Origin: Sphingobacteriia bacterium RIFOXYC2_FULL_35_18
GTDB taxonomy: Bacteria > Bacteroidota > Bacteroidia > Chitinophagales > Chitinophagaceae
Assembly: GCA_001829005.1 (NCBI GenBank)
Contig: MIAG01000001.1
Span: 62,001 to 126,000, forward strand
Reading direction: 5' to 3'
Length of the DNA: 64,000 bases
A program made the position numbers and the translations under genes. Under the pieces are notes generated by a model. That model was not told the origin of the DNA. It worked only from the letters and a program-made list of their open reading frames with translations, and did no database searches. Positions 4,983 through 33,733 of this stretch are shown here, piece by piece; positions within the stretch are counted from its first letter, which is position 1; every line of letters starts with the position of its first letter.

Positions 4983-5004
4983 AAGGATAAATATATACAT
5001 TTGC

Positions 5005-5215
5005 TGCGTTACTGGTTCATCTGCCTCAGTCAGATGATTAAAAGGGAAGTCGGTGTAACTCCGGCGCTATCCCCGTAGCTGTAACCCGCGCCGCAAGGCA
5101 AACTTTTGAATCACTACAACCACTGTCTCGATTATAAAGAGATGGGAAGGACATTCAAAGGGTGGGAAGCCAGAAGACCTGCCAATAGCAAACAAGTATT
5201 CACGGCTTTCGGGTG
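5005..5215 (+). ncRNA. Cobalamin (AdoCbl) riboswitch
   Basis: aaaagggaagtcggtgtaactccggcgctatccccgtagctgtaac (5040-5085), ccactg (5119-5124), gggaaggac, and B12-box agccagaagacctgcc (5168-5183), ahead of a TonB receptor and cob genes. Confidence 0.95.
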
Positions 5216-5315: not shown

Positions 5316-7247
5316 ATGAGCAAAAAATTAACGCTCCTCCTAACCCTGCTATCAAGCGCTGGCTTGTATGCACAAAAAGACAGTTTACGCACCAGTGTGC
5401 TAGACGAAGTAGTGGTAACTGCCAATAAGCAGGAACAAAAACAAAGTACTACAGGTAAAGTGATTACCGTAATTGGACAAGCTGAATTGTCTAAAAGTTC
5501 GGGCAAATCGTTGGGCCAAGTATTGAATGAAACCGTTGGTATCACCATCAACGGAGCGCTGAACAATGCGGGCACCAATCAAACCGTATTTATGCGCGGG
5601 GCCAATAGCGGTAGAACGTTGATACTAATGGATGGTATTCCTGTGTATGATCCTTCGCAAATTGGCAATGAATTCGACCTGAACCTTTTTTCTATTAATG
5701 ATGTAGAAAGAATTGAAGTATGCAGAGGTGCCCAAAGTACCGTATATGGAAGTGATGCGGTTGCAGGGGTAATTAATATTATTACTGTAAAGCAAAATGT
5801 AAACAAACCCATCAATGTAAAAGCTACTTTAACTGCAGGTAATTTAAATAGTTTTAAAAACAACTTGCAGCTGTATGGTAAGTACAAAAAACTAACTTAT
5901 AGTTTGCGTAATGCCGGTATTCGTACCAATGGGTTTAGTGCAGCCAGTGATACTATTGGCACTAGAAACTATGACGCAGACGGATACAAGGGCAATAGTA
6001 CCAGTGCTGCAGTTCAATATGCCGTAAACAACCAATTATTATTGAAAGGGTTTGGAATGTACAGCCAATACCAGGCCAGCATTGATGCAGGTGTATTTAG
6101 TGATGATAAGCAGTATCTATTGAAAAACAATTTATTGAATACGGGCTTTGGTTTGGTGTATAAAACCAAATCATTGCAGGTAACTGCCAACTATCAATTC
6201 AGTCAAACCAATAGAGGATATGAAAGAGATAGTGCAGATAAAGCAGTATTTAGTTTTTATCAACGCAACAAGTATTTTGGTAAAACACAGTTTGCAGAAT
6301 TGTACGCTTCGTTTAAATTAAATCAATCATTCTCTTTATTGCAGGGTGTTGAATACCGTTTTGCCAGCATGAATAATCAGTTTGAATCGGTAAGTAGTTT
6401 TGGCCCATTTAAGTCGGGTTTTAAAGACACGGGTATTCATCAGTCATCTGTGTACAGTTCTTTACAATTCAATAACCAGAAAGGGTTTTTTGCAGATGCA
6501 GGATTTAGGTTGAATAAACACTCTATTTACGGGAACAGCAGCACTTTTACTTTTAATCCTTCATTTGCGGTTTCAGAACAGCTGCGCCTATTTGGTAGTG
6601 TAGCTACTGCATTTAAAACCCCTTCCTTGTTTCAACTATTTGATTCATTTAGTGGAAGAAGAGATTTAAAAGCAGAAACCAGCACTACTATTGAAGCAGG
6701 ATTTTCGCATAGCTATACGGGTTTTACCAGCAGGTTAGTGGCTTTTTATAGAAATACCAATAATGGAATAGACTACGATTATGTGCGCAACAAGTATTAC
6801 AATTTCATAAAGCAAACCGCTTTTGGGGTTGAATACGAAACCAGTATTCGATTGAGTAATCGTTTGCAAATGAATATGAATTTTAGTTACCTAAGCATGA
6901 TCGATTCTACACAAAGCAGAACCAATTTTAAAGACACTGGCTATATTTATGGACTAAGAAGACCAGGCTTTCAAAGCAATATGAGCGTAAGCTATACGCA
7001 TGAAAAAGCAACTGTTTCTATCATAGGAAAATATGTAGGCAGCCGATCAGATATTGGTGGATTTAGAAGGGCCGATGTATTGTTACCTGAATATTTTATT
7101 TTGGGTGCTTATGCAGAATATCGTTTTAGCGAAAAAATAAAATTATTTGTAGACGCACAAAATATCACGGGCAAGAAATTCACCGATTTAAGAGGGTTTA
7201 ATAGTATTCCATTTTTAATTAACTCAGGTATTAGTATCCATCTATAA
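5316..7247 (+). CDS. btuB: TonB-dependent receptor, BtuB-like (vitamin B12 uptake)
   Basis: Plug domain VLDEVVVTANKQEQKQSTTGKVITVIGQAEL, beta-barrel and C-terminal aromatic end; sits under the cobalamin riboswitch and upstream of cobT. Confidence 0.88.
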   Translation: MSKKLTLLLTLLSSAGLYAQKDSLRTSVLDEVVVTANKQEQKQSTTGKVITVIGQAELSKSSGKSLGQVLNETVGITINGALNNAGTNQTVFMRGANSGRTLILMDGIPVYDPSQIGNEFDLNLFSINDVERIEVCRGAQSTVYGSDAVAGVINIITVKQNVNKPINVKATLTAGNLNSFKNNLQLYGKYKKLTYSLRNAGIRTNGFSAASDTIGTRNYDADGYKGNSTSAAVQYAVNNQLLLKGFGMYSQYQASIDAGVFSDDKQYLLKNNLLNTGFGLVYKTKSLQVTANYQFSQTNRGYERDSADKAVFSFYQRNKYFGKTQFAELYASFKLNQSFSLLQGVEYRFASMNNQFESVSSFGPFKSGFKDTGIHQSSVYSSLQFNNQKGFFADAGFRLNKHSIYGNSSTFTFNPSFAVSEQLRLFGSVATAFKTPSLFQLFDSFSGRRDLKAETSTTIEAGFSHSYTGFTSRLVAFYRNTNNGIDYDYVRNKYYNFIKQTAFGVEYETSIRLSNRLQMNMNFSYLSMIDSTQSRTNFKDTGYIYGLRRPGFQSNMSVSYTHEKATVSIIGKYVGSRSDIGGFRRADVLLPEYFILGAYAEYRFSEKIKLFVDAQNITGKKFTDLRGFNSIPFLINSGISIHL

Positions 7248-28180: not shown

Positions 28181-29209
28181 TTATCGTGCCTGATATATGA
28201 GATTAATCAGGTCAATCGTGTCCTTAGCCTCTTCAATTGTTGTGTAATAAGGAGTTTGATGCAACAGGGTGTTGATTAAACTATTGTATACCTGATAATG
28301 ATTTCGCATGCTGCCTTTATACTGACCGTAATCGTTGGCTGAAAACTGCTCTTTATTGATTGTATCCAATTGTATTTGCAATATAGAAGCCAACTCAACA
28401 TCATCAACTTCAAACTCCAATGTATTTAAATAAGAACCGCCAGCCTTAACAATTCCCTTCAAAGAAAAAATAGTAAGTGACCCTTCCCTATTTACAGAAG
28501 GTTCATTTACTGAGTAGTCCATGCTAGCTTTTATTCCAGACTCAAATTCCAATTGAATATGTCCTTCGTCTTCAAATTCAATTAATCCCTGGTGATTCCT
28601 GTTTTTAAATTGTCCTTCTGCAGTTTTTACCCTTCCAAATAACCAACAAAGCAGGTCTATAAAATGGCTAAACTGGGTGAACAAAGTGCCTCCATCTAAT
28701 GCCATTGTTCCATGCCAACTATTTGTATAATAACTGGCCGGTCTATGCCAAAAGCAATTTATTTGAACATGATCAATATTACCCAATACTTTCTTTTGCA
28801 ATAATTCATGAATCAGTTTCACAGGTGGATTGAATCGATTCTGCATGACCGAAAAAATTTGTTTTCCGGTTTGATTAGCTACTGATTGCATTTGTTGAAT
28901 GGCTGCTCCTGTAAGTGCAATGGGCTTTTCTACTAAAACATGATACCCAGCTTGCATTGCTTCAATGGCTTGTTCCGCATGCAATCCGTTGGGAGTAGCT
29001 ATTACCACTACATCTAATTTTTGTACTGAAGTATATAATGCTGAACTGGTTTCAAAAAATGGAACCCCATATTGATCACCCATTTTTTTGGCTTTAGCAA
29101 GATTGGTATCAACTACTGCAACCAAAATTCCTACACGGGTTATTTGTGTAGCATGTTCTGTAGCAATATTGCCACAACCAATCAGTGCAAAATGAATAGG
29201 TGTATGCAT
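28181..29209 (-). CDS. Gfo/Idh/MocA family oxidoreductase (WbpB-like)
   Basis: FALIGCGNIATEHATQI, VVIATPNGLHAEQAIEAMQAGYHVLVEKPIALT. Confidence 0.88.
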   Translation of the reverse strand: MHTPIHFALIGCGNIATEHATQITRVGILVAVVDTNLAKAKKMGDQYGVPFFETSSALYTSVQKLDVVVIATPNGLHAEQAIEAMQAGYHVLVEKPIALTGAAIQQMQSVANQTGKQIFSVMQNRFNPPVKLIHELLQKKVLGNIDHVQINCFWHRPASYYTNSWHGTMALDGGTLFTQFSHFIDLLCWLFGRVKTAEGQFKNRNHQGLIEFEDEGHIQLEFESGIKASMDYSVNEPSVNREGSLTIFSLKGIVKAGGSYLNTLEFEVDDVELASILQIQLDTINKEQFSANDYGQYKGSMRNHYQVYNSLINTLLHQTPYYTTIEEAKDTIDLINLIYQAR

Positions 29210-29928
29210 TAAAAAAATAAGCTGGCTGCTTTGGTTAAACTTTCAGGCTTTCCTACATCTAGTAATAATGCACCGGTATGATCAAAACAATAAATATTTT
29301 CTGTAGCACATAAGTCTAGGTAAACATCTACCATCGAAAATTTTCCCTCTTGTTTTATTTTTGCAAATAGGGATTGTTGTACAACATGAATTCCACTAAA
29401 TGCTCTACTGTGTAAGCCACTGGTATCAAGGCCTGCAGGCTTTACTTCGCCTGTTCCTTCGTGCTTCCACCCTTTTAATTTGCTGTCGTCTCCAAACAAA
29501 AAATACCTTGAAGTGGTTCTTTGTGATACTGCCAATGTTGCCAATGCATTTGTTTGCTTGTGTTGCTGTATCATTTGGTCTAATTGCATATTCGTTAAAA
29601 TATCTGCATTCATGATAACCAACTGCTCTTCATCTTTAAAAAAATGCGCTGCTTTCTTTAAACCTCCACCCGTTTCTAAAACTTCATCTGATTCATCTGA
29701 AATAAAAATAGTAGATCCCCATCCATCATTGGTTTCAATTGCTTCAATTATTTGACTAGCAAAATGGTGCACATTCACTACCACTTCCTTAATTCCATAT
29801 TGTTGTAAGTACAATATATTCCGCTCTAATAACGACTTCCCATTTACTTGGGCCAATGCCTTAGGATGCTTATCTGTCCAAGGTTTCAGCCTGCTCCCCA
29901 ATCCCGCTGCAAAAATCATTGCTTTCAT
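29209..29928 (-). CDS. Nucleotidyltransferase, MurU-like (NDP-sugar synthase)
   Basis: MKAMIFAAGLGSRLKPWTDKHPKALAQVNGKSLLERNI: LGxGxRxxPxTxxxPKxL signature; next to an AmgK-like kinase. Confidence 0.82.
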   Translation of the reverse strand: MKAMIFAAGLGSRLKPWTDKHPKALAQVNGKSLLERNILYLQQYGIKEVVVNVHHFASQIIEAIETNDGWGSTIFISDESDEVLETGGGLKKAAHFFKDEEQLVIMNADILTNMQLDQMIQQHKQTNALATLAVSQRTTSRYFLFGDDSKLKGWKHEGTGEVKPAGLDTSGLHSRAFSGIHVVQQSLFAKIKQEGKFSMVDVYLDLCATENIYCFDHTGALLLDVGKPESLTKAASLFF

Positions 29929-29936
29929 ACGATGCT

Positions 29937-31376
29937 TTATTTAACCCAATTGGCGCTATTGGTATGTGTTAAATTAACTTTCAGTTTGTATTTGTTTCTT
30001 AAGTGTCTGGCTGTTTGTTCTGCTGCATATACACTTCTGTGTTGTCCACCCGTGCAACCGAAATTGATCATCAAATTGGCGAATCCCCTGCTTAAATATT
30101 CTTCTACTGTTATATCGATCAAATCCCAAACACTATTTAAATATTTATCCATTTTAGTTCGCTGTTCTAAAAAATCTTGCACAGGTTTGTCTTTACCTGT
30201 TAGCTTTTTATACTCATCAAATCTTCCAGGGTTTAAAATACCGCGCATATCAAACATGAAGCCTCCTCCATTTTCTGTATCGTCTACGGGTATGCCACGT
30301 TTGTAACTAAAACTATTTACTTCAATTGTTAATGGGGTGTTTTCATTGGCTTGAGGAGCAACAAACTTATTGATCATATTTTGATCTACCACTAGCTTTA
30401 ACACTCTGTCGAATTCAGGTGTAACAATGCCGACTCGCTTATGCTCAATAAAAAATTTAAGGTTCTGCAAAGCCAATGGTATACTCGCTAAAAAATGTGC
30501 TTTCCGCTCAAATAAACCTCTAAATCCATAAGCACCCAATACTTGCAACAAACGAATCAATACATATCCATTGTATTGACTTACAAAAGTAATTCGGTCT
30601 ACTGGCTCTTCTAACAATGGGTCTACTTGATCCATATAATATGCTAGCAAATTATCTTTCCATTCTTCACTTAATTCTGCTTTTGCTTGCCATAATAAAG
30701 AAGCCACATCATATTGTAATGCCCCTTGCATGCCTCCTTGATAATCTATAAAATGTACCTGATCATTTTGTACAATAATATTCCTGCTCTGAAAATCGCG
30801 GAACATAAAAAACTTATTCTGCGTTCTGGTTAAATAAGTACTAAGTGCATCAAAATCATCTAGCATTGCCTGCTTATCGTAAGGCAATTGTAGGGTATCT
30901 AAAAAATAATATTTAAAATACAAGAGGTCACTCATGATGGCCTGCTTGCCAAATTCTTTTGCAGTTAAACACCAACTATAATCTAACCCTTTATGTCCTA
31001 ACACTTGCACTTTGGCCAATTGCGCCAAGCTCTGCTGAAATAATTGATACGAATAATCGCCATGCCCGTGGGCTTCTAATTTATTCAATAAAGAATCAGT
31101 TCCTAAGTCTTCTTGTAAATAAATGGTATTGGTGTCATTCACACCCAAAATAGCTGGGACAGGTAAATTAGCTTGCTTAAAATGCTTACTGAAATAAACA
31201 AATGTGGCAGTTTCTTTTGTATTGATATTATACGTGGCTATCCATGTTTGCTCACCCGCATATACCCTAAAATAAATTCGGTCGCTTCCACTTTGTGGTA
31301 GTTTTTCAATTCGATCGGGCGCCAGCCCTACTGCCTGCTGACAAAGTGCTTCAATTGCTGCTATAACTGATTCCAT
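29937..31376 (-). CDS. Fusion: N-terminal AmgK-like (APH-fold) sugar kinase and C-terminal RapZ-C domain
   Basis: Kinase motifs MFRDFQSRNIIVQNDQVHFIDYQGGMQGALQYDVASLLWQ; C-terminal EVNSFSYKRGIP...FMFDMRGILNPGRFDEYKKLTGKDKPVQDFL...LMINFGCTGGQHRSVYAAEQTARHL (RapZ C-domain signature). Confidence 0.88.
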   Translation of the reverse strand: MESVIAAIEALCQQAVGLAPDRIEKLPQSGSDRIYFRVYAGEQTWIATYNINTKETATFVYFSKHFKQANLPVPAILGVNDTNTIYLQEDLGTDSLLNKLEAHGHGDYSYQLFQQSLAQLAKVQVLGHKGLDYSWCLTAKEFGKQAIMSDLLYFKYYFLDTLQLPYDKQAMLDDFDALSTYLTRTQNKFFMFRDFQSRNIIVQNDQVHFIDYQGGMQGALQYDVASLLWQAKAELSEEWKDNLLAYYMDQVDPLLEEPVDRITFVSQYNGYVLIRLLQVLGAYGFRGLFERKAHFLASIPLALQNLKFFIEHKRVGIVTPEFDRVLKLVVDQNMINKFVAPQANENTPLTIEVNSFSYKRGIPVDDTENGGGFMFDMRGILNPGRFDEYKKLTGKDKPVQDFLEQRTKMDKYLNSVWDLIDITVEEYLSRGFANLMINFGCTGGQHRSVYAAEQTARHLRNKYKLKVNLTHTNSANWVK

Positions 31377-31431: not shown

Positions 31432-31914
31432 TCAGGGTTTAAGCCCAAATACATTTACTTGGCGATAATCGTCTTGCTCATAACGCTTGCGCATCAGCAC
31501 CAATTCGGTAATGGTAAATAATGCCGCAAAACAAGGTTGGTTAATGCGTAAATAAGGCCTTACACTAAAATAAATTTCCTTGCACTGGTAACTGCTGATG
31601 TATTGACTCACTACGTTTAATTGCGTGGCCAGTTGCTGAAAGGGTGTGGTGTCTGCAATGCGCACCTGCAATCTGCCGGTGGCATCGTCTATTTGTTGTT
31701 CTATTTGAATGGAAAATTGTTCTTTATTGCTGATGATTCGATGCATCCAACGGATAATCGTTTCTTCCATTTGTTCGGTGGCTTCAAATACCGCAATTTC
31801 AATGGGGAGGACCGCTGCATCGGCAAAACGAGGATAAGCCATTAGTAAATACTGCTCCCTTTCACTACTAATAGTGGTCTGTTGAGCGCTGTTCAAAACA
31901 TATCCTGCCTGCAT
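31432..31914 (-). CDS. Hypothetical protein, possibly a degenerate 2H-phosphoesterase-like fold
   Basis: ORF with start at ATG 31914 (track start at 31920 is TTG). C-terminal FTITELVLMRKRYEQDDYRQVNVFGL resembles the final strands of 2'-5' RNA ligase-like proteins. Motif positions read PIEIAVFE and PYLRINQ instead of PHITL/PHLTI. Confidence 0.6.
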   Translation of the reverse strand: MQAGYVLNSAQQTTISSEREQYLLMAYPRFADAAVLPIEIAVFEATEQMEETIIRWMHRIISNKEQFSIQIEQQIDDATGRLQVRIADTTPFQQLATQLNVVSQYISSYQCKEIYFSVRPYLRINQPCFAALFTITELVLMRKRYEQDDYRQVNVFGLKP

Positions 31915-31951: not shown

Positions 31952-31970
31952 TTACTAAATTATTTAGTAA
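31952..31970. promoter_or_regulatory. Palindromic operator candidate between the divergent 31914(-) gene and umuD
   Basis: TTACTAAAT-T-ATTTAGTAA, perfect 9-bp arms. A third half-site, TTTAGTA, lies about 13 nt to the left (31940-31946), opposed to TACTAAA (31953-31959). Confidence 0.6.
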
Positions 31971-31985
31971 GTAAAAATTTATTTT

Positions 31986-32420
31986 ATGGATGGGGAAATC
32001 GGGTATGGGGCCGCCTACAAGGGCTCTAAGCAATATACGCAATGGGAAGTGCCCACTGCCAATGCCACCGGATTTGGGGCTGCTGCCGACGATTATATGG
32101 AGCGAGGCATCGACCTAAATGAACAGTTGGTACACAATAAACCGGCCACATTTTTCTTTAGGATGAACAGTGATGCTATGACGGGCGCAGGTATTTTTAG
32201 CGGAGACACCCTGGTGGTAGACCGAAGTATCAAAGCGATGAGCGGTAAAATCATCATCGCCATTTTAGATGGAGAATTACTGGTGAGAAGATTGCACAAA
32301 AATTTTAATCAACTAACCCTGGTGGCCGAGAACAAAAAGTTTTCGGATATCCAACTCAATGGTTTTGATGAACGTGCCCAGGTTTGGGGAGTAGTTACCT
32401 ATTCTATTCATGCGGTGTAA
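31986..32420 (+). CDS. umuD: UmuD-like LexA/S24-fold protein with substituted catalytic dyad
   Basis: ATGFGAAADDYMERGIDLNEQLVHNKPATFFFRMNSDAMTGAGIFSGDTLVVDRS...ILDGELLVRRLHK...WGVVTYSIHAV; aligns along its length with UmuD and lies upstream of umuC. Confidence 0.85.
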   Translation: MDGEIGYGAAYKGSKQYTQWEVPTANATGFGAAADDYMERGIDLNEQLVHNKPATFFFRMNSDAMTGAGIFSGDTLVVDRSIKAMSGKIIIAILDGELLVRRLHKNFNQLTLVAENKKFSDIQLNGFDERAQVWGVVTYSIHAV

Positions 32421-32452: not shown

Positions 32453-33733
32453 ATGATTGGAATAATTGATTGTAATAGTTTTTACTGTTCTTGTGAACGA
32501 CTTTTTTTGCCTGCCTTACAAGACGCGCCTGTAGTGGTACTCAGCAACAACGATGGGTGCATTGTATCGCGCAGCGACGAAGCCAAGCAAGCAGGTGTAA
32601 GTATGGGTATCCCTTATTTTCAAGCCAAACAATTGATTGAACAAAAAGGCATTCATACTTTTTCTTCCAACTATAATTTGTATGGGGATCTTAGCTGGCG
32701 TGTAATGGAAACCCTGCGGCAGCTCTTGCCCCCTGGTGCAGTAGAAGTGTATTCGGTAGATGAATGTTTTATTACGCTCGACCATATTGCGAGGGAACAG
32801 TTGGCGGCGTTTTCGCTCCACCTAAAAGATACCGTAGAGCAATGGACAGGCATTAAAGTATCCATTGGTGTGGCGCCCACTAAAGTATTGAGTAAAGTGG
32901 CCAACAGATTGGCTAAAAAAAATAAAGTGGCCACCAATTGTATTCTGGTACTTGACACACCAGAAACCATTGCCAACGCATTGCAACAAACTGCTGTTGA
33001 AGATATTTGGGGCGTGGGTAGACAGTATGCTGAAAAATTACGCAAATACAATATCAATACGGCTTTTGACTTACGCAGCATGCCCGCTACATGGGTACAA
33101 AAAAATATGGGGGGTATTGTAGGAGAACGACTATTGAGAGAACTAAACGGCATCAAGAGTATTGAAATGAAAGACCCATTACTCAATAAAAAAATGATTG
33201 CTACTACTCGTATGTTTGGTAAAAATGTAACCAGCAAAGAACATATCAAAGAAGCCATTGCTACTTATATTACTAGGGCTGCAGAAAAATTAAGAAGACA
33301 ACAAAGTGCTGCTTCGGTCATTTATGTTTTTGTGGTACCCAAACAAGAAAACAATGGAGGAAAATTCAGGCATGGAAATAGTGTAGGTGGATACATTCAT
33401 TTGCCACTTGCAACGGCAGCTACTAATGAATTGATTAAACCTGCAGTGGAACTGGTAGATCAATTATTTGAAGAAGGATGCATCTATAAAAAAGCTGGCG
33501 TGATTTTGAGCAGCATTGTTCCAGATGAATCCGTTCAAGGAAATTTGTTTGCACCAAAAGTTCCTCAACAAAATAGATTACTCATGAGCACCATCGACAA
33601 TATCAATTTTGCCATGCGCAACGATATGATTCAGTTTGCTACCGCAGGCACCCAGCGCAACTGGAAAATGCGTCAAGAACTTCGGAGCCCTCGCTACACT
33701 TCGCGTTGGGAAGAATTGTGTACGGTTCGATAA
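32453..33733 (+). CDS. umuC: Y-family DNA polymerase V catalytic subunit
   Basis: MIGIIDCNSFYCSCERLFLP, VVLSNNDGCIVSRSDEAKQAGVSMG, YSVDECFITLD, C-terminal clamp-binding QGNLF. Start at ATG 32453. Confidence 0.93.
   Translation: MIGIIDCNSFYCSCERLFLPALQDAPVVVLSNNDGCIVSRSDEAKQAGVSMGIPYFQAKQLIEQKGIHTFSSNYNLYGDLSWRVMETLRQLLPPGAVEVYSVDECFITLDHIAREQLAAFSLHLKDTVEQWTGIKVSIGVAPTKVLSKVANRLAKKNKVATNCILVLDTPETIANALQQTAVEDIWGVGRQYAEKLRKYNINTAFDLRSMPATWVQKNMGGIVGERLLRELNGIKSIEMKDPLLNKKMIATTRMFGKNVTSKEHIKEAIATYITRAAEKLRRQQSAASVIYVFVVPKQENNGGKFRHGNSVGGYIHLPLATAATNELIKPAVELVDQLFEEGCIYKKAGVILSSIVPDESVQGNLFAPKVPQQNRLLMSTIDNINFAMRNDMIQFATAGTQRNWKMRQELRSPRYTSRWEELCTVR

Follow-up and report, generated by a model that had tools for sequence, protein, structure and literature searches.

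In the textbook account, SOS mutagenesis is held back post-translationally by a brake, the RecA-triggered self-cleavage of UmuD: UmuD normally must cut itself to switch its DNA-damage polymerase on. The umuDC operon described here lies in a window of 64,000 nucleotides, the whole stretch of DNA that was analysed, and it raises the question of what becomes of that switch when the UmuD homologue carries neither residue of the catalytic Ser-Lys dyad.

A UmuD homologue without a catalytic dyad

The umuD homologue is a reading frame of 144 codons with an ATG start (31986-32420, + strand). Its product scores 129.4 bits against the NCBIfam UmuD subfamily model NF007621, above the curated cut-off of 110, and 80.9 bits against Pfam S24. 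With phmmer, it aligns to E. coli UmuD' and UmuD (1umu, 8gmt, 1i4v) at E-values of about 1e-18, ungapped over both catalytic sites. Assignment of the gene to the UmuD family is solid by these sequence comparisons. The alignment pairs GDSM of E. coli UmuD with SDAM, and GEFTVKKL with GELLVRRL, such that the position of E. coli Ser60 is taken by Ala64 (codon GCT, 32175-32177, + strand, within MNSDAM) and that of Lys97 by Arg101 (codon AGA, 32286-32288, + strand, within GELLVRRL). The first-pass annotation, made from the letters of the window, had proposed exactly these Ser-to-Ala and Lys-to-Arg replacements, which the ungapped alignment bears out; its description of both umuD and umuC was accurate.

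A dyad in a shifted register was considered and rejected. The serine two residues upstream of Ala64 (in NSDAM) is glycine in many relatives, and a lysine near position 101 is not conserved among them. Column conservation within the focal clade, the clade to which this UmuD belongs, also revealed no newly conserved Ser, Thr or Cys near the site that might act as substitute nucleophile or base. The protein very probably cannot cleave itself. The Ser-Lys dyad that defines a self-cleaving S24 peptidase is absent, as is the V/I-x-A/C-G scissile site that defines a self-cleaving UmuD, where N-A-T-G stands instead. Because both of these defining features are missing, the protein, which is a UmuD by homology, fold and operon, should be named a UmuD-family pseudo-protease rather than an autoproteolytic subunit. 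Automatic annotation errs when it labels such dyad-less UmuDs "autoproteolytic subunit".

In an AlphaFold2 model, the body of the protein is predicted with confidence (about 90), with UmuD', the LexA C-domain and RecA-bound UmuD as the best PDB matches. Foldseek returns 1ay9 and 1umu with a probability of 1.00, and the TM-score to UmuD' is about 0.86, as expected for the S24/UmuD' fold. The N-terminal arm is modelled with low confidence and without strands, whereas the control, a model of an intact homologue within the same family, has two arm strands at a pLDDT of 70-77. This contrast hints weakly that the focal arm may no longer dock on the active site, given that the two alignments differ in diversity and the focal one is the less diverse.

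Replacement of the cleavage signature and conservation of the arm

The arm comprises 28 residues (31986-32069, + strand), and it is followed by a GFGAAADD segment (32070-32093, + strand) in place of the GFPSPA that comes after the scissile bond; the old P1 residue is Thr28. Cleavable UmuDs of the Bacteroidota have a conserved V or I at P3 and a conserved A at P1, their scissile bond is followed by a conserved GFPSPA, and their arm varies in length and sequence. In the focal clade, A-N-A-T stands before the same Gly and is succeeded by FGAAADDY, with V/I at P3 replaced by N and A at P1 replaced by T. The arm itself is near-constant in length, with exactly 28 residues in most members, and its residues Y11, G13, K15, Q19 and A25-N26-A27-T28 are more than 90% conserved. 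Columns conserved in the focal clade only include Ala64, Arg101, GAA31-33, R40, G41, K52 and P53. With both the dyad and the cleavage signature replaced, self-cleavage has lost its enzyme half as well as its substrate half.

Purifying selection on the gene is strong, as low dN/dS indicates, and its partner umuC is under purifying selection as well. Pairwise dN/dS values against close relatives, taken only where dS is unsaturated, are about 0.01-0.12 over umuD, and values for the arm are mostly low too. Met38 is frequent in the focal clade.

An intact polymerase partner

The umuC gene starts 32 nt past the umuD stop and encodes a Y-family polymerase with a DUF4113 tail (32453-33733, + strand), in which SVDE and QGNLF are intact. 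The earlier claim that this UmuC, with its SVDE and QxxLF motifs, is not decayed is confirmed, and the active site is also kept across relatives: in UmuC of non-dyad operons, D6 and S[VIA]DE are retained wherever the sequence covers them. A umuC gene lies directly downstream in 144 of the 169 non-dyad umuD loci counted. REP/IS200-like transposases are inserted between umuD and umuC in L202, L212 and L240, and a radical-SAM (SplB-like) gene follows umuD in L077, L093, L113, L192, L197, L198 and L227.

The UmuC residues specific to the focal clade are I4, C12, V100, M252, N379 and R385, and M252 recurs in an independent dyad loss, that of family f44 (see below). These residues offer a lead, as possible signs of a rewired interface.

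Distribution among relatives

The closest named relatives of the locus belong to Sediminibacterium and other Chitinophagaceae. In 111 relatives (56 to 100% identity), the Lys position is always Arg and the Ser position is Ala except in 3 loci; within the focal clade, conservation is 100% for Arg101 and 95% for Ala64. Comparison of the two catalytic columns across Chitinophagaceae, which the first-pass annotation had put forward as a check, thus finds that relatives share the losses. A recent strain-specific mutation, which would have undone its reading, is excluded, since the loss is common to the whole clade.

A wider sample was drawn from the order and phylum, with near-identical copies of one genome included, and its 261 UmuD ORFs comprise 151 with Ala/Arg, 91 with Ser/Lys, 9 with Ser/Arg and 10 others. 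Of the 35 Chitinophagaceae genera in the sample, 32 have the focal type; g49 and g74 have an intact dyad instead, and g52 has an inactive UmuD of another type. For the most part, Ser/Lys with an A-G cleavage site is kept in the other families of the order and of the phylum. Some relatives also carry an intact UmuD (G156, G368).

The Lys is missing from all focal-clade relatives and the Ser from 95% of them, whereas 78 of 80 viral UmuDs retain Ser/Lys; the dyad loss is thus far from chance. The exceptions among the viral proteins, one Ala/Arg and one Ala/Lys, are rare forms on IMG/VR viral contigs (L303 and L346). Carriage of dyad-less UmuD by phages or plasmids was also considered and set aside: the best plasmid and phage matches examined retain Ser/Lys, with the Ser position ambiguous in one of them, the HumD of phage D6.

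Unusual copies occur as well. Orphan inactive UmuDs with scrambled arms and no umuC are found in other Chitinophagaceae (L230, L232, L234, L235, L236 and L237), and several of the genomes that hold them also have an intact umuDC. A 280-residue ORF (L218, in G416:C2) has two separate UmuD matches, which suggests two UmuD-like domains in tandem within a single reading frame.

Repeated loss of the dyad and direct encoding of UmuD'

The active or inactive state changes at least 8 times on a UmuD tree, built with the dyad columns removed, and at least 8 times on a UmuC tree, a number that is approximate because many deep forks are poorly resolved. At least three separate dyad losses can be safely stated from these trees. 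A single origin for all inactive UmuDs was rejected when they were constrained to one clade on the UmuD alignment (p = 0.0004). Grouping the focal clade with f44, a family of another class with Ala/Arg, is compatible with the data on UmuD alone (p = 0.70); on the longer UmuC tree, f44 is placed beside an intact lineage. The UmuC tree also places the focal clade (support 98) as sister to operons of family f9 with Gln/Arg or Asp/Asp (support 96), so the focal loss predates the family.

On the UmuC tree, loci L199, L200 and L204 belong to a second Chitinophagaceae paralogue and are nested among its intact operons. In L199 and L200, a Met exactly replaces the P1 residue (MGFPSP...) and an in-frame stop lies just upstream, such that these genes encode UmuD' directly. 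L204 and L238 probably share the same type of Met start. The HumD of the P1-like phage D6 has an identical start, MGFPSPAADY. The recurrence of dyad loss in the phylum, as read from these trees, and the loss of the substrate half of the reaction go beyond what the first-pass annotation had claimed.

Predicted SOS control and neighbouring genes

A perfect CTAA-N5-TTAG box, TTACTAAATTATTTAGTAA (31952-31970, no strand assigned; core 31955-31967), lies upstream of umuD and is the only exact match of its pattern in the genome. In the relevant passages of PMC8565304, CTAA-N5-TTAG is the box of the Bacteroidetes non-canonical LexA. The box precedes 114 of 118 distinct focal umuD genes, where chance would give 0.7, and usually lies 31-33 nt ahead of the ATG. 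Elsewhere in the genome, a gene with HTH_3 and S24 domains (L002, 1381-2133, - strand, in G000:C2) retains GDSM, the Lys and an A-G site and has its own CTAA-N5-TTAG box just before the start codon; its product is a candidate repressor, a putative COG2932-type non-canonical LexA. The focal operon thus has what the sequence of a non-canonical LexA SOS regulon calls for, an operator and a cognate repressor in the same genome.

Besides its single UmuD, the genome has two S24 loci, which encode the repressor and a helicase fusion, so cleavage in trans by another UmuD is unavailable in this organism. In the fusion (L003, 1-1914, in G000:C1 near 490078), a Schlafen group 3 helicase domain is joined at its C-terminal side to an S24 peptidase-like domain in which GDSM is present.

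A divergent gene of about 160 codons (31432-31914, - strand) shares the intergenic region with the SOS box and has no Pfam or NCBIfam match. Given this position, and that its homologues adjoin umuD in many relatives, it may be an uncharacterised SOS gene. Farther out in the window, a gene at 29937-31376 (- strand) fuses an aminoglycoside-phosphotransferase/AmgK-like kinase domain to a RapZ C-terminal domain and adjoins a nucleotidyltransferase-like gene (29209-29928). A cobalamin riboswitch (4996-5200, + strand) immediately precedes cobalamin-pathway-like genes and a large gene at 5316 that resembles those for outer-membrane receptors.

Proposed mechanism and alternatives

The central proposal of the first-pass annotation, a UmuD that does not cleave itself beside an intact polymerase, survived tests of register, relatives, selection, substitute residues, the UmuC site and the promoter. 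It had left two options for Pol V, a permanently uncleaved checkpoint state or activation without proteolysis. We infer that the second is to be favoured, since inactive relatives encode UmuD' directly and UmuC stays catalytic. The focal protein would then be an SOS-induced accessory subunit of Pol V without the RecA-triggered self-cleavage switch. Its 28-residue arm would never be removed by UmuD itself; undocked from the dead active site, the arm would be free or join the polymerase, and the uncleaved dimer would work like UmuD' in the mutasome. Control of Pol V would pass to transcription, by way of the non-canonical LexA, and probably also to RecA and protein turnover. That the focal UmuD works in such a UmuD'-like, active way seems the better bet, with considerable room for doubt. 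The broader reading is offered more tentatively, at somewhat below even chances: Chitinophagaceae, and convergently several other Bacteroidota lineages, may have discarded the proteolytic switch of Pol V, made the arm of an uncleaved UmuD a permanent working part of the mutasome and kept the polymerase active under control that is purely transcriptional, along with RecA.

Studies of the E. coli protein point both ways. The uncleavable UmuD-3A can mimic UmuD' when its arms are released (PMC5342242), and mimicry of UmuD' by uncleavable UmuD with freed arms is also credited to Beuning 2006 in a passage of PMC3901139. A published model of Pol V places the N-terminal end of UmuD' beside the active site of UmuC (PMC11791011), and with such a placement an arm that is reshaped and uncut could conceivably form part of the polymerase. 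Uncleaved E. coli UmuD-S60A makes cells more sensitive and reduces mutagenesis (PMC3901139), so lack of cleavage does not guarantee activity. The focal protein has a conserved arm, whereas the armless inactive genes have none, so the arm has a job, and that job could be inhibitory.

The main rival, which is unlikely but deserves to be taken seriously, builds on such inhibition: a permanent UmuD-like inhibitory or checkpoint state would slow replication or, once the SOS response is induced, hold UmuC inactive, with translesion synthesis by this UmuC minor or absent. Retention and conservation of the full arm would suit such a role, as would the suppression of mutagenesis by E. coli UmuD-S60A together with UmuC (PMC3901139). 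However, a silenced polymerase would not need the catalytic residues that UmuC keeps in essentially all such operons, the arm has lost the residues conserved in cleavable UmuDs and is undocked in the model, and other inactive lineages have dropped the arm altogether. A slightly smaller chance is given to a cut in trans, made by a housekeeping protease or by a second S24 peptidase (the non-canonical LexA, or intact UmuD where present), which would remove the arm and still yield UmuD'. E. coli UmuD-S60A is cut in trans by an active partner (PMC5342242), and relatives such as G156 and G368 would have such a partner in their intact UmuD, but the E. coli reaction took place inside UmuD heterodimers, the focal genome has no second UmuD, and the P3/P1 signature was lost together with the dyad.

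The remaining alternatives carry far less weight. A short active form, made either by self-cleavage that persists through other residues or by translation that starts internally at Met38, is very improbable. The frequent Met38 and the few members that keep Ser with Arg at the Lys position are consistent with it, but no substitute nucleophile or base is conserved, and a start at Met38 would delete the UmuD' arm, in the absence of which UmuD' is inactive in mutagenesis (PMC11791011). Decay of the operon, with neutral substitutions, is hardly credible: degenerate orphan copies without umuC exist elsewhere, but no support for decay was found for the focal operon, and the low dN/dS in arm and body, conservation over 32 genera, the intact UmuC and the conserved SOS box argue against it.

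Activation without proteolysis remains the preferred reading, and it has a wider meaning. A large family keeps a selected Pol V operon without the cleavage brake, and dyads have been lost independently elsewhere, in some cases in genes that encode UmuD' directly, a natural experiment which suggests that cleavage is dispensable. "What is the switch for?" becomes a directly testable question in non-pathogenic bacteria.

Comparison with known systems

A distant and weak structural match to the focal UmuD is SipA (PDB 4n31), a signal-peptidase homologue that has likewise lost its dyad; its function is unrelated, as it is required for pilus polymerisation. In Bacteroidetes with a non-canonical LexA, the CTAA-N5-TTAG box precedes umuDC, as in the focal genome, and the passages of PMC8565304 that concern this arrangement do not comment on a missing UmuD dyad. 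A search of the open-access literature brought up no publication on an entire family whose full-length UmuD naturally lacks the dyad. Precedents for parts of this state are already known, both engineered, in non-cleavable UmuD, and natural, in HumD.

The HumD of P1-like phages is a natural UmuD relative that skips cleavage, like L199 and L200. HumD has no arm and keeps the Lys, whereas the focal UmuD retains its conserved 28-residue arm rather than starting at the old cleavage point, and scores 72.6 bits against the HumD model, below the cut-off of 120. The focal protein resembles E. coli UmuD/UmuD' (NF007621; 1umu, 1ay9, 8gmt) in fold, in its operon with umuC, in predicted SOS control and, by homology, as a dimer-forming S24 protein. 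It differs in the absence of the Ser-Lys dyad and the V/I-x-C/A-G site, in a different, conserved 28-residue arm, and in FGAAADDY in place of FPSPAADY. The engineered UmuD-S60A bears the same Ser-to-Ala change as the focal UmuD. UmuD-S60A and UmuD-3A, however, are laboratory mutants, whereas the focal state is natural and ancient, and is combined with loss of the Lys and a new arm.
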